Positions 18,238 to 23,377 of a stretch of DNA of 64,000 nucleotides are shown here, in pieces (position 1 is the stretch's first letter; the number at the start of each line of letters is the position of its first letter). This stretch comes from Undibacterium pigrum (GTDB lineage Bacteria; Pseudomonadota; Gammaproteobacteria; Burkholderiales; Burkholderiaceae_D), in contig NZ_QJKB01000001.1 in the NCBI RefSeq assembly GCF_003201815.1, positions 1,116,001 to 1,180,000 on the forward strand, written 5' to 3'. The notes below the pieces were generated by a model. That model searched no databases, was not told the DNA's origin, and saw only the letters and a program-made list of their open reading frames with translations. The translations under genes were made by a program, and so were the position numbers.

Positions 18238-19407
18238 TTATTTCAGTTGATCATTCAACAATTGCAGGATTTTCTCTGCCACTGGTGAAGAGTCTACTTT
18301 GCCATCGCTATTGTGTACCGACACCAGGCTGATGTCGCCACTGGCGGCATTCTTGACCTGGATACGGTATTTCTGTGCATTTTTTGTCGCATCGCTGGAA
18401 GAACCGAACGAGAACAGGCGCGAGAAGAAGCCTTCGCTTGCACCTTTGGTCTTGGCATCAATGTCCTGGTCAACATAACGGACAAAATACAAACCTTGTG
18501 AGCGGTCACGGTCTTCCACTGTAAAGCCTATGCGATCCAGCGCCAGACCTACCCTGCGCCAGGAGCGGTCAAATGCCTCATCGACTTCAACATAGGTTTT
18601 GCCATCGTTTTTCAGCAATTGCGAACGAGCCTTGCCAGGTGCACTAGGCGCAGCCACTGCAGTTTTTGCTTTTTCACCGTCACTACCCAGGCGTACCATC
18701 AGGCGGGACAGGAATTCTGCTTCCAGGCCAGGATCAACTGCACGAGGTGTCCAAACCGTACCATCTTTTTGTGCACCAACCAGCACTTCTTGCGCGCCGC
18801 GATGGCTGATGTAGATTTCTACCTCGCCATTTGCACCACGTTCAAGACGGGTACGGAATTTATCCCGTTCGCCTGTGGAATACAGAGAGTCAAGTACTTT
18901 GCCCAAGGTATTGCGGATGATGTCCTGAGGGATTTTGGCGCGATTTTCTGCCCAGTCGGTTTCCATGACACCAGCTTCCTGATTTTCTACATTGATCAGG
19001 AAACCCAGCTCTTGCCAAAAGTCTTTCAACTGTGGCCACAGAGATTCAGGCGTGTCTTTTACCACCAGCCAGCGAGTCGTGCCATTACGCTCTATGCGCA
19101 TGTTCTGGACTTGCTTGGCAGCGACTACGCCGCTATTGCCACTGCTGGCAACTTTATTTCCTTTTTCCAGATTGTAACTGGATGCTGTAGCACTGCTTTT
19201 GTTTGCTTCAGGGATGGAAAAACGATTATCGCGACGAATTTGCGTCAAATCAGGTGGCACCTCCAAAGATGCCGACGTTGTTTTACTGGCGCTTCTATAG
19301 TCGATCTTGTTAGGTTCGAGAATATTGCCTATTGAACTACAGCCAGTCAAACCTGCCAGCGCTAATGCGCCTATGATGCCGTTTTTAGCAACAAAGCTTT
19401 TTGCCAT
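18238..19407 (-). CDS. bamC: Outer membrane protein assembly factor BamC
   Basis: Lipoprotein subunit of the BAM complex that inserts beta-barrels into the outer membrane. The product starts MAKSFVAKNGIIG and has lipobox L-T-G-C at about residue 22. An unstructured stretch follows, including NKIDYRS of the BamD-binding lasso, then two helix-grip domains (about 100-220 and 265-385). The start at 19407 follows AGGGAC by 6 bases; the longer frame to 19434 is unlikely because it would extend the signal n-region. It lies downstream of dapA on the same strand, the same dapA-bamC order as in E. coli. Confidence 0.92.
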   Translation of the reverse strand: MAKSFVAKNGIIGALALAGLTGCSSIGNILEPNKIDYRSASKTTSASLEVPPDLTQIRRDNRFSIPEANKSSATASSYNLEKGNKVASSGNSGVVAAKQVQNMRIERNGTTRWLVVKDTPESLWPQLKDFWQELGFLINVENQEAGVMETDWAENRAKIPQDIIRNTLGKVLDSLYSTGERDKFRTRLERGANGEVEIYISHRGAQEVLVGAQKDGTVWTPRAVDPGLEAEFLSRLMVRLGSDGEKAKTAVAAPSAPGKARSQLLKNDGKTYVEVDEAFDRSWRRVGLALDRIGFTVEDRDRSQGLYFVRYVDQDIDAKTKGASEGFFSRLFSFGSSSDATKNAQKYRIQVKNAASGDISLVSVHNSDGKVDSSPVAEKILQLLNDQLK

Positions 19408-19484
19408 GTGAAAGTCCCTACGAATTATTATCAATTAAAACTGCGTGAAGCAAACGTGCGAGTTACCTAGCCGTTCAAAGGAAG

Positions 19485-20369
19485 TCATTGTAATACACCA
19501 GCTTCACGCATCGCTGCGCGAACGGTTTCATGATATTGCTCAGCCATCGTCACCAAAGGCAAACGCAGACCGGTTGGTATCAAACCCATTTCCACCATGG
19601 CCCACTTCACTGGCAATGGATTGGGTTCAATAAACAATTTATTGTGCAAGGGAATCAGGCGGTTATTGATGGCAATGGCTTCCTTGACATCACCACGCAT
19701 GGCGGCCGCACACAATTCATGCATGGCTTTGGGAGCTACATTGGCTGTCACCGAGATATTACCCTTGCCGCCGTACAGCATCAGCGCGACTGCCGTTGCA
19801 TCATCACCGGAATAGACGGCGAACGAAGCTGGTGCCAGGCGTATCAGGTCGGTACCACGGGCAATATTACCCGTTGCATCCTTGACACCAATAATGCCAG
19901 GAACTTGCGCCAGACGCAGTATAGTCTCATTCGACATGTCTGCCACTGTACGACCAGGAACATTGTACAAAATGACAGGAATATCAACAGATTCAGCAAT
20001 TTTCTTGAAGTGCTGGTACATGCCTTCCTGGGTAGGACGGTTGTAGTAAGGCACGACTTGTAAAGAGGCATCAGCACCAGCCTGTTTCGCGAACTTGGTC
20101 AGGGCAATGGCTTCTTCAGTGGAGTTACCGCCAGAACCGGCGATGATAGGGATACGTTTATTGGCATGCTCAACAGCCACGCGTATCAGTTCACAATGTT
20201 CCTCAACAGTAACAGTAGGTGATTCACCTGTCGTGCCAACGATCACGATGCCATCTGTACCTTCGGCAATATGCCAGTCTATCAATTTGCGCAAACATGG
20301 CAAATCAAGACTGCCATCTGCATGCATGGGGGTTACGATCGCAACCAGACTACCCTGAATCTTTGTCAT
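19485..20369 (-). CDS. dapA: 4-hydroxy-tetrahydrodipicolinate synthase
   Basis: Condenses pyruvate and aspartate semialdehyde, first committed step of lysine and diaminopimelate synthesis. It is 294 residues, the standard TIM-barrel length. GTTGESPTV near residue 46, [15 protein letters not shown] near residue 110 with the active-site Tyr, and GVKDATGN near residue 163 with the Schiff-base Lys are all present. It is upstream of bamC in the same direction, 77 bp apart, probably one transcript. Confidence 0.97.
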
Positions 20370-20468: not shown

Positions 20469-21062
20469 TCAAAGCTTATCCAAAGCACTGATTTTTCCAG
20501 CTTTTCTGGCACAAATACGCTGCACCATGGCTGGTTTGGGCTGCTCTACATAGCCATCCTCGTAAGCGATAATGCTCATCTCCACCTGGGGATTAGACTG
20601 CATTTGCTCAAGAAGTTCGCCGGGGCGTAATAAAAAAGCAGGATTAGAGGGTTTACCAAAATTTTCATTGCCAGCAGCAAAGGTTTCGTAAATCAGTATG
20701 CCGTCCGGCTTCAAACTGCTGAGCAAGTGCGGAAATAATTGGCGGTGCAGATAATTGCAGACGATGATGGCAGCAAAACTATGCTCAGCAAATGGCCAGT
20801 CATAACCGACCTCGCCATACTCCAGATCATGTAGCTGTGTTTCTATGCCAGCCGCATGCAAGGCCAGGAAGCCCTGATCACTTTTATCCAGACCCAGAAC
20901 AGACAGCCCTGAGTCATGCAGGTAAAAGCTATTTCTGCCGCTACCACAGGCCAGATCCAGTACTTTCCCATTCTGCGCCTTCAACAAATGAGAAAACCGC
21001 TTTAACCAGAGAGAAGGCGTAGCAGCCTGATGCACACCACTCTCATCATGTTTCACCTGCAT
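20469..21062 (-). CDS. Class I SAM-dependent methyltransferase, TehB-like
   Basis: Methyltransferase of about 197 residues. Motif I VLDLACGSGRNSFYL lies near residue 35, an acidic post-I residue in GLDKSD follows, and the motif IV region is IIVCNYLHRQLF. The C-terminal part (FLLRPGELLEQM) is typical of the tellurite-resistance TehB-like group, whose natural substrates are mostly unknown. The start at 21062 is chosen because a G-rich Shine-Dalgarno sits about 9 bases upstream; an ATG at 21071 abuts it. It follows the degenerate site-2 protease gene on the same strand. Confidence 0.8.
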   Translation of the reverse strand: MQVKHDESGVHQAATPSLWLKRFSHLLKAQNGKVLDLACGSGRNSFYLHDSGLSVLGLDKSDQGFLALHAAGIETQLHDLEYGEVGYDWPFAEHSFAAIIVCNYLHRQLFPHLLSSLKPDGILIYETFAAGNENFGKPSNPAFLLRPGELLEQMQSNPQVEMSIIAYEDGYVEQPKPAMVQRICARKAGKISALDKL

Positions 21063-21090
21063 CGTCAACATCCCCCCTAAAACCGCAGAC

Positions 21091-21750
21091 TCAAGTCAGC
21101 AAGGCGATAAAAGGTGATGCCAGCAACTGCAAAACATAGCTGCCCACAGTCATCAAAGGAACCATCCAGTACTGCAAAACATGAAGCAAGGCCAGACCTA
21201 TGAGGATAAAGAAACAGTAAGGCTCTATCTTTGCATACTTATAGGCCTGGGCATGAGGCAACAGGCTCAATATAATCTGTCCGCCAGCCAGAGGTGGGAT
21301 AGGCAATAAATGAAACGCAAACATGGCGAGGTTGGTCAGCACACCCGCACGTGCCATTTTTGAGAAAAACGGTTCTTCGACAGACAGTGCGACAAGCAGG
21401 ATGGACAACAACATCCATGCAAAACCCATGAGCAGATTAACTGCAGGACCAGACAAGGCTATCCATTTCAAATTCTTTTTTGGATCGCGCAACATGGAGT
21501 AATTGAGTGGCATGGGTTTGGCATAACCAAACAAGAATGCGCCCTGCGTCACCAGATAAAGAACCACAGGTATGACCAGCGTACCCATGGGATCGATATG
21601 CACCATGGGATTAAAACTCAAGCGCCCTTGCGCCTGCGCGGTTGTGTCACCAAAGTAGCGCGCCGCATAGCCACGCGCCGCCTCATACAGGGTAATGGCA
21701 AAAACAACGGGCAAGGCATAAACCAGGACGGTTTGTATCAGTTCATTCAT
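21091..21750 (-). CDS. Site-2 protease (M50) homologue lacking the zinc ligands
   Basis: Polytopic inner-membrane protein of 219 residues with the layout of small bacterial M50 proteases: membrane segments around 7-25, 55-75, 95-120, 135-150, 170-190 and 195-215. The metal-binding HExxH is replaced by Y-E-A-A-R at residues 22-26 and the usual PPLDGG aspartate is Ala155 (IPPLAGG), so all three canonical zinc ligands are gone. The rest of the fold (HIDPMG, LSGPAVNLLMG, LLPIPPL) is conserved and the frame is intact, suggesting a retained pseudoprotease. It sits between yciO and the methyltransferase, a place where active site-2 proteases are often found in related genomes. Confidence 0.82.
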   Translation of the reverse strand: MNELIQTVLVYALPVVFAITLYEAARGYAARYFGDTTAQAQGRLSFNPMVHIDPMGTLVIPVVLYLVTQGAFLFGYAKPMPLNYSMLRDPKKNLKWIALSGPAVNLLMGFAWMLLSILLVALSVEEPFFSKMARAGVLTNLAMFAFHLLPIPPLAGGQIILSLLPHAQAYKYAKIEPYCFFILIGLALLHVLQYWMVPLMTVGSYVLQLLASPFIALLT

Positions 21751-21824: not shown

Positions 21825-22448
21825 TTACAGCCCAAACAAGGCAACGTCACCGCGTCCCTGGCGCACCAGCCCAGGTGCATCCCCGGTCATATCGATCACC
21901 GTGGTTGGCACCAGGCTGCAGGCACCACCATCAATGACCAGATCGACGAGCTTCGCCAGCCTGTCCCTGACTTGCTCAGGATCAGTCAAAGGCTCTTCTT
22001 CATCTGGCAGTATCAGTGTCGTACCCAGCAAAGGCTGCTTCAACTCTTCCAGCAAGGCGTGGGTGATGGAATTTTCAGGCACGCGCAGGCCTATGGTCTT
22101 GCGTGATGGATGACTCAGGCGACGCGGCACTTCCTTGGTCGCTTCGAGTATGAAAGTGTACGGCCCTGGCGTTGCCGCTTTCAACATGCGGTACTGGCGA
22201 TTGTCGACCTTGGCATACAGAGAAATTTCTGACAGGTCGCGGCACAGCAAGGTCAGATGATGTTTTTCATCGACACCACGAATTTTGCGCAGGCGCGTAA
22301 CCGCATCCTTGTCGTCCAGGTGACATACCAGGGCATAACAAGAGTCAGTAGGCAAGGCAACGATGCCGCCATTATCGATAATCTGCACTGCCTGCTTGAT
22401 CAGTCTCAGTTGCGGATTATCAGGATGAATTTGAAAAAATTGGCTCAT
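21825..22448 (-). CDS. yciO: YciO-type Sua5/YrdC-family protein
   Basis: YrdC-fold protein of 207 residues. The N-terminus MSQFFQIHPDNPQLRLIKQA and the block LLCRDLSEISLYAKVDN closely resemble E. coli YciO as I remember it, rather than TsaC/Sua5. True threonylcarbamoyl-AMP synthases make the t6A37 precursor; YciO proteins have only weak or uncertain activity of this type, so t6A synthesis should not be assumed. It follows htpX and the hairpin at 22450 on the same strand. Confidence 0.85.
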   Translation of the reverse strand: MSQFFQIHPDNPQLRLIKQAVQIIDNGGIVALPTDSCYALVCHLDDKDAVTRLRKIRGVDEKHHLTLLCRDLSEISLYAKVDNRQYRMLKAATPGPYTFILEATKEVPRRLSHPSRKTIGLRVPENSITHALLEELKQPLLGTTLILPDEEEPLTDPEQVRDRLAKLVDLVIDGGACSLVPTTVIDMTGDAPGLVRQGRGDVALFGL

Positions 22449-22501: not shown

Positions 22502-23377
22502 TTAACGCATATTTTGCAATGCGGCAATACGTTGTTCCAGCGGAGGATGGGTAGAAAACAAAGCACTCCAGCCTGATTTATCACTAATGCCTGATGCTGC
22601 CATGGATTGTGGCAATGCGCCCGGCTGCATACCCCCCAGCCTTGCCAAAGCGTGCATCATGGGTTGGCGGTTGCCCAGCAATTTGGCTGAACCCGCATCT
22701 GCACGAAATTCTCGTTGACGCGAAAACCAGGCAACAATCAAAGAAGCAGCGATCCCGAACAGTATCTCACATACAAATACGGTGATCATATAGCCTATGC
22801 CAGGCCTGTCGTCATTACCATTGCGAAATACTGCTTTATCGATAGCATAACCAACCACCCGCGCCAGGAAAACCACAAAAGTATTCACTACACCCTGTAT
22901 CAAAGTCATGGTCACCATGTCGCCATTGGCGATATGGGCAACTTCATGCCCCAGTACAGCTTCCACTTCTTCCCGCGTCATACCTTCAAGCAAACCGGTG
23001 GAAACAGCTACCAGGGCAGAATTTTTAAAAGCGCCGGTGGCAAAGGCATTCGCTTCACCATTATATATCGCCACTTCTGGCATACCGATGCCAGCTCTCT
23101 CAGAGAGAGTTTTCACAGTATTCACCAGCCAGAACTCTGTCGATGTAGAGGGTGACTCTATCACCTTGGCACCAGTTGACCATTTTGCCATGGGCTTACT
23201 GATCAACAGGGAGAAAATGGCACCAGTAAAACCAACTACCAGAGAAAATACCAGCAGGGTCGACAGTTGCAGCCCATTAGCCGTTAAAAACCGGTTAACG
23301 CCCAGTAAAGACAAGACCACGGACATGACGGCAACAACCGCCAGATTTGTCAGCAAAAACAGGACTATACGTTTCAT
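22502..23377 (-). CDS. htpX: Protease HtpX
   Basis: Zinc metalloprotease of the inner membrane (M48B) that degrades damaged membrane proteins. It has 291 residues with two N-terminal membrane segments (about 5-23 and 33-57), the active-site [10 protein letters not shown] near residue 145, two further membrane segments (about 160-178 and 192-217), and the third zinc ligand Glu in [12 protein letters not shown]. The first gene of the following terminator-bounded unit is yciO. No CpxR or sigma-32 site was recognised. Confidence 0.96.

Follow-up and report, generated by a model that had tools for sequence, protein, structure and literature searches.

A probable site-2 pseudoprotease of Undibacterium and its exchange with intact alleles

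The 64,000-nucleotide stretch of Undibacterium pigrum DNA analysed here (the window) carries a gene for a site-2 protease (S2P) homologue in which all three zinc ligands are replaced. We consider it probable (roughly 0.6) that this protein is a maintained pseudoprotease and that it binds a membrane target without cutting it. According to this reading a domain-less S2P, encoded at a conserved locus between yciO and a methyltransferase gene followed by dapA, would have become catalytically dead and have been kept as such.

The locus and the former active site

The gene order PHP gene - htpX - yciO - S2P - methyltransferase - dapA - bamC (Table 1) was kept in most of Undibacterium and partly outside the genus, htpX being missing from the locus in some Undibacterium. 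The nearest named relative of the source genome was U. umbellatum (95% identity). Between the two the methyltransferase was 82% identical, whereas the measured neighbours reached 91-99%. The yciO-dapA gap measured 2.2-2.8 kb at eight outgroup loci, against mostly 1.4-1.6 kb within Undibacterium. The trpS gene that the initial annotation mentioned as a neighbour in related bacteria would account for the longer outgroup gap.

Table 1. Positions in the window of the S2P-like gene, its altered motif residues and the neighbouring genes.
Feature	Position	Strand	Basis or remark
S2P-like gene, candidate pseudoprotease, 219 aa	21091..21750	-	ORF with ATG start; weak PF02163 match; best PDB folds are S2Ps
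Degenerate HExxH, codons 22-26, Y-E-A-A-R	21673..21687	-	Alignment to intact congeners
Codon 155, Ala replacing the LDG zinc-ligand Asp	21286..21288	-	Alignment
Codon 147, His replacing Asn of the extended LDG motif (N147H)	21310..21312	-	Fixed in 8/8 YEAAR species; also in U. squillarum
Codon 158, Gln replacing Arg after DGG (R158Q)	21277..21279	-	Fixed-difference comparison
yciO/TsaC-type gene, conserved upstream neighbour	21825..22448	-	TIGR00057; synteny
htpX (M48 membrane protease), adjacent gene, absent from some degenerate genomes	22502..23377	-	PF01435
Class I methyltransferase, downstream neighbour	20469..21071	-	Fast-evolving, omega 0.182 in 8 species
dapA, flanking control gene	19485..20369	-	PF00701
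bamC (NlpB/DapX lipoprotein), flanking control gene	18238..19434	-	PF06804

The motif changes described in the initial annotation were all found: residues 22-26 read YEAAR in place of HExxH and residues 150-157 read PIPPLAGG, with A155 in place of the aspartate of PPLDGG, while the segments HIDPMG (residues 51-56) and GPAVN (residues 101-105) are present. Aligned with 24 intact orthologues from the genus, the protein has Y22, R26 and A155 at the two histidines and the aspartate of HExxH/LDGG. The 219-aa protein has neither the HExxH of an active S2P (peptidase M50) nor the LDG aspartate that acts as the third zinc ligand. Two further changes in the catalytic motifs, N147H and R158Q, go beyond those noted before. 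Mutations of the HExxH and LDG motifs are reported to lower S2P activity (PMC10202637). Judged from its residues, the window protein is probably unable to bind catalytic zinc or to hydrolyse; other residues might bind a metal, E23 being still present and invariant throughout the YEAAR set.

A comparison of the eight dead proteins with 22 intact congeners (rows G305 and G234 were left out of this count) gave 11 fixed differences, five of them inside the catalytic motifs. Fixed change is therefore concentrated at the former active site, and the rest of the protein is constrained. The two sets had 68 invariant positions in common, including E23, N105, N140 and the PPLxGG frame, and the most variable parts were two short inter-helix loops and the last helix. 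Sequencing error or an isolated mutation is rejected as the source of the substitutions because they recur in seven further species (eight in all).

Of 43 Undibacterium genomes, 35 gave a match at E <= 1e-5. One of these matches, in G308, was distant (31% identity, with TAG) and was left out of the gene trees, so that 34 orthologues remained: 24 intact (HEAAH/DGG), eight YEAAR/AGG, one HEGAR/AGG and one CEAAK/DGG. The frame was open in all eight YEAAR species. A search at the same threshold found no second copy of the orthologue in any Undibacterium genome. At the locus itself the S2P gene was absent from G176, G299 and G308 (loci L143, L147 and L145), where the yciO-dapA gap was 693-792 bp and held the methyltransferase; these three formed one group in the tree of flanking genes (96/89). 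Because the gene is absent there, its function is dispensable in some backgrounds.

Whether the Y/R/A pattern marks a conserved clade had been named in the initial annotation as a point to check, and in the gene tree the pattern does fall within one clade. The YEAAR sequences were joined there by the HEGAR sequence of U. squillarum with support of 100/99. The U. squillarum allele has nine of the 11 fixed differences and has kept H22, and could be either a reversion or an intermediate stage; a tree in which the YEAAR sequences are monophyletic without it was not rejected (p-AU 0.29).

The source genome also holds other M50 genes. Three with HExxH (L003, L004 and L007) bear on the earlier question of whether a second, active M50 gene is present, and L001 is a full-length M50 match, presumably RseP. 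A separate degenerate M50-like protein of 216 aa (L002; contig C21, 1492-2142; Pfam M50 score 44.4 bits) has HLPTI for HExxH and FNGT in the LDG region, and a relative in U. hunanense (L101) is likewise without the motif (HIMSI, FNGW).

Predicted fold and family membership

The AlphaFold2 model of the window protein, built with 38 sequences, had a mean pLDDT of 87.0 and consisted of six long helices and a short helical stretch at residues 155-174, in agreement with the six-segment membrane protein proposed in the initial annotation. The intact orthologue of U. aquatile was predicted with nearly the same elements (pLDDT 84.3). When the window model was used for a structure search the nine best entries were all S2Ps, with Z scores of 8.1-11.8 against 6.7 for the best other row; Z scores below about 13 may reflect an arrangement common in helical bundles, but the nine S2P entries still stand apart. 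The core fold was like that of Escherichia coli RseP (PDB 7w6x, Z 11.8 over 163 residues), Methanocaldococcus jannaschii S2P (PDB 3b4r, Z 10.6 over 152 residues) and Bacillus subtilis SpoIVFB (PDB 8vjl and 8vjm, Z 8.1-8.9). RseP and the M. jannaschii enzyme are active zinc proteases, which the window protein with its degenerate site probably is not, and SpoIVFB is active too. Foldseek alone returned 3b4r at E 1.6e-3 (probability 1.00) and no match below 0.001. By sequence SpoIVFB was the only S2P match, at a non-significant E of 0.37.

The window protein narrowly missed the curated cut-off of Pfam PF02163 (26.4 bits against 27.2), which the intact U. aquatile orthologue (L018) passed well with 43.8. 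Its orthology to intact S2Ps is seen in 53-65% identity to the intact congeners and in the same syntenic place. The catalytic residues have thus been lost within a protein of predicted protease fold.

SpoIVFB carries a CBS domain and in this respect differs from the window protein. The CBS domain is assigned to S2P Group III, and RseP belongs to a PDZ-bearing group, from which the window protein also differs (PMC10202637). Groups II and IV are described as having neither PDZ nor CBS, like the window protein, a likeness of domain content; according to the same source no member of these two groups is extensively characterised (PMC10202637).

Selection on the dead form

Across the eight YEAAR species the S2P gene gave an omega of 0.066 (codon model, codon-tree length 6.4), and subsets of five and three of the species gave 0.074 and 0.039; since synonymous sites are saturated between the deeper species, omega rests mainly on the close pairs. 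Four intact sets gave values of 0.028-0.058, each slightly below that of the dead set, the set of G304, G154 and G085 gave 0.056, and the control genes yciO, dapA, PHP and bamC in the same eight species ranged from 0.037 to 0.067. Pairwise dN/dS in the dead set was 0.010-0.075 in the four pairs with dS below 0.8 and 0.101 in the single deeper pair computed. Purifying selection on the dead form is strong and only slightly weaker than on the intact alleles, as expected of a pseudoprotease. Such constraint could instead come from integration into the membrane, or from a new role that has nothing to do with binding a substrate.

The initial annotation had argued for retention instead of decay and had proposed dN/dS as a check for purifying selection. 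The open frame in eight species, the low omega and the pLDDT, which is no lower than that of the intact orthologue, bear this out. It had also named a combination that would speak against a retained function, namely HExxH in close relatives together with relaxed selection on this copy. The first part holds for some close relatives, a mixture of dead and intact forms that is due to allele exchange, but selection is not clearly relaxed.

Exchange of dead and intact alleles

In contrast to the gene tree, the tree of four flanking genes scattered the YEAAR species: the label needed four changes, each of them required by starred branches. By its flanking genes U. rivi, with a dead allele, had as nearest neighbour U. 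aquatile, with an intact one, a pairing that the S2P gene data rejected (AU p 2e-56). The flank clade of the window sequence with G282, G296 and G300 was rejected by them as well (AU p 1.6e-4). Around the locus the DNA of U. rivi and U. aquatile was 85-100% identical (in 60-base steps), yet the two carry opposite alleles. Along this DNA U. rivi resembled U. aquatile (87-100%) as far as the beginning of the gene, agreed with U. hunanense across the gene itself and then returned to U. aquatile. The switch points lie near nt 35-56 and 722-752, counted from the ATG, in codons 12-19 and some 60-90 nt past the stop codon. The difference between the two species is thus a tract of roughly 0.7 kb with sharp breakpoints.

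Counts of quartet sites gave the same picture. In the S2P gene nine sites joined U. rivi with U. aquatile and 65 joined it with U. hunanense, while the six neighbouring genes had 42-88 sites for the first pairing and 2-9 for the second. A second quartet (the window genome G000, G282 and G253) gave 15:66:15 in the S2P gene; its flanks were weaker and partly undecided (15:18:19 in htpX, 17:15:8 in dapA).

Some of the pairs used for breakpoints and quartets had been picked for a known conflict. An unpicked version is the scan of all 17 close congener pairs, those with a median core dS of up to 0.9, in which a gene was called an outlier when its dS was more than double the median of the other core genes and more than 1.3 times their highest value. 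The S2P gene was an outlier in eight of the 17 pairs and the six control genes in 0, 0, 0, 1, 1 and 2. PHP was an outlier as well in G104/G063 and G154/G304, two of those eight pairs, at much lower dS (0.56 and 0.47). The outlier pairs include the CEAAK allele (G304) compared with the intact one of G154. In the near-identical genomes G282 and G296 (loci L076 and L077) both alleles are intact, and here the S2P gene had a dS of 0.93 against 0.05-0.14 for the core flanks. The dS of the methyltransferase was also high in this pair (0.68), which suggests that the exchange tract spans both genes.

Homologous recombination at the S2P gene has swapped dead and intact alleles for one another. A hidden paralogue with differential loss is rejected as the main account, since each gene-bearing Undibacterium genome has a single copy and a breakpoint lies inside the gene. 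In the wider family two matches were found in each of three genomes (G203, G208 and G238).

Repeated loss in the wider family

The intact DNA pattern HEAAH[AG][YF] was present in 249 of 294 family genomes. The 45 genomes without it comprised eight Undibacterium (seven degenerate, one without the gene), seven others without an orthologue match and 30 whose loci were read, 25 of them intact but with a different spelling of the motif or of the residues after it and five degenerate. At least 13 of the 286 family genomes with a match are degenerate; this is a lower bound, since an intact pattern contributed by a paralogue can mask a degenerate orthologue, the case in G253. In a second genus (g19) each of 62 genomes had one match. 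Among the best 30 of these 62 loci, 17 read HDxxQ, four HNxxQ and nine were intact, and five more genomes that were read were intact.

A family tree of 105 rows was built without the 12 motif and fixed-difference columns and without MAG_beta, which is identical to G297. Thirty-three rows were degenerate, a number that is not a frequency because the set was enriched for such rows: loci had been ranked by similarity to a degenerate query, and genomes lacking the intact pattern had been added. Starred branches forced five changes between intact and degenerate, namely YEAAR/HEGAR, CEAAK, H[DN]xxQ, HDAAK (g9) and REAAT (g30); to read all five as losses is to assume that the common, intact state is ancestral. 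Three of the losses are firmly placed, including that of a 21-species clade of g19. We call only these three firm because the g9 and g30 losses are single long-branch rows that were flagged by the tree program. Both are single degenerate orthologues that kept the aspartate motif, L157 (G074, g9) with HDAAK/DGG and L178 (G029, g30) with REAAT/DGG. The idea that the motif alone holds the YEAAR/HEGAR clade together is rejected: with the 12 columns dropped the sequences still grouped (SH-aLRT 82, not starred) and five changes were still forced.

The second zinc histidine was gone in all 33 degenerate rows, replaced by R in nine, K in two, Q in 21 and T in one. Of the 12 degenerate proteins outside g19, 11 had R or K as the replacement, and these 11 cover three of the four origins.

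No allele exchange was seen in g19. Degenerate and intact rows were separate in both gene and flank trees, and omega was 0.134 for nine HDxxQ genes and likewise for four HNxxQ genes (13 of the 21 degenerate ones) compared with 0.133 for six intact genes. In this genus the dead form is therefore inherited vertically.

What the protein may do

Swapping of dead and live forms between related species suggests that cutting is not the sole job of the protein. As a maintained pseudoprotease it would still bind the partner or transmembrane segment recognised by its intact relatives, and would act by holding, shielding or presenting this client instead of cutting it. Such a non-catalytic role would be common to the intact protein, which would explain why dead and intact alleles can be swapped. 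As a structural guess, of weaker standing than the foregoing, the R or K at the position of the second histidine may substitute for the zinc as a positive charge next to the acidic residues that remain, which might keep the buried core stable. A more far-reaching version, which we put forward tentatively and think somewhat less likely than its opposite, is that catalysis is optional throughout this domain-less bacterial S2P family: intact and dead forms would be interchangeable alleles of a single chromosomal locus that recombination moves between species, the core function non-proteolytic, and proteolysis an add-on that was lost several times.

A different explanation could lie in escape from recognition. 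A phage, a bacteriocin or a contact-dependent toxin might exploit the protein, so that diverse alleles, dead ones among them, were kept and swapped. This would fit the observation that the S2P gene is conspicuous in at least four separate comparisons of species, also between two intact alleles (G282/G296). Enterocin K1 is reported to target RseP and to require for this an Asn of the extended LDG motif (PMC10202637), and the Asn that is fixed as His in the window protein is presumably its equivalent. We nevertheless regard this explanation as unlikely. We know of no such exploiting agent in Undibacterium, omega is low without an excess of amino-acid change, the variable regions (the two loops and the last helix) vary less among the eight dead proteins than among the 22 intact ones, and g19 inherits its dead form vertically.

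It is less likely still that the S2P and the neighbouring HtpX belonged to a shared membrane-proteolysis pathway that was dropped, leaving an inert S2P which now serves another purpose. Locus-type HtpX (at least 69% identical) was missing in 14 of 29 genomes with a degenerate S2P, in none of 25 with an intact one and in one of three without the S2P gene (G303). The htpX label needs four changes on the g19 tree, all within the degenerate clade, but only two of these are forced by starred branches. Eight of the 14 genomes, all from g19, still carry a more distant HtpX paralogue (62-68%) at another place, and the assemblies of G342, G324 and G074 are incomplete (83, 87 and 90%). Moreover, several other genera lack HtpX although their genomes contain the intact HExxH pattern, and in g9 the genomes G008 and G050, both with the intact pattern, are without HtpX as well. 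The link to HtpX is suggestive, a lead only, and not a rule in the wider family.

That the protein is still an enzyme, its rebuilt site (Y22, E23, R26 and H147) binding another metal or working metal-free, is very improbable: E23 is invariant and the new His147 is fixed beside the site, but all three known zinc ligands are gone and the other degenerate lineages differ in their residues (HDxxQ, HNxxQ, CEAAK, HDAAK and REAAT), which is not what a single alternative catalytic design would predict. That the gene was recently inactivated and is on its way out, as its absence from the locus in some congeners might hint, is hardly credible given the open frames, an omega of 0.066 over so long a codon tree and the equal omega of degenerate and intact genes in g19.

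Relation to known pseudoproteases

The maintained pseudoprotease that we favour has a counterpart in EGY3, an S2P homologue of Arabidopsis chloroplasts without the zinc-binding motif, which is classed as a pseudoprotease and reported to stabilise other chloroplast proteins (PMC10978774). EGY3 is eukaryotic and resides beside active paralogues in the same organelle, whereas the Undibacterium gene is bacterial, orthologous by position to intact S2P genes, and its genome has no active duplicate of it. The inactivation of EGY3 is expected to be of separate origin, since the dead clades described here nest inside intact bacterial ones. The iRhoms are likewise described as inactive, conserved and functional relatives of an intramembrane protease (PMC3149277, PMC6451368), and the rhomboid superfamily as a whole, inactive as well as active members, is reported from almost every domain of life (PMC12615303). 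The iRhoms differ in that they belong to a superfamily of serine proteases, occur in animals and have gained new domains. CspC of Clostridioides difficile resembles the window protein as a bacterial pseudoprotease with a reported role, but is soluble (PMC7985256). It does not belong to the intramembrane proteases, and its fold is unrelated.

Among the matches listed, no bacterial pseudo-S2P was named in open-access titles or the beginnings of abstracts, which is weak evidence of absence, and no open-access paper was found on an Undibacterium site-2 protease or on YwhC. Intramembrane pseudoproteases are thus already known from plants (EGY3) and animals (iRhoms), while a bacterial S2P that has died several times and whose live and dead alleles are exchanged was not found in the open-access literature among the matches listed.

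Repeated death of an S2P, strong selection on the dead form and its swapping with a live allele amount to a natural experiment, as in the pair of U. rivi with its dead allele and U. aquatile with its intact one, bacteria that are not known to be pathogenic. With it, what domain-less S2Ps do besides cutting becomes directly testable.
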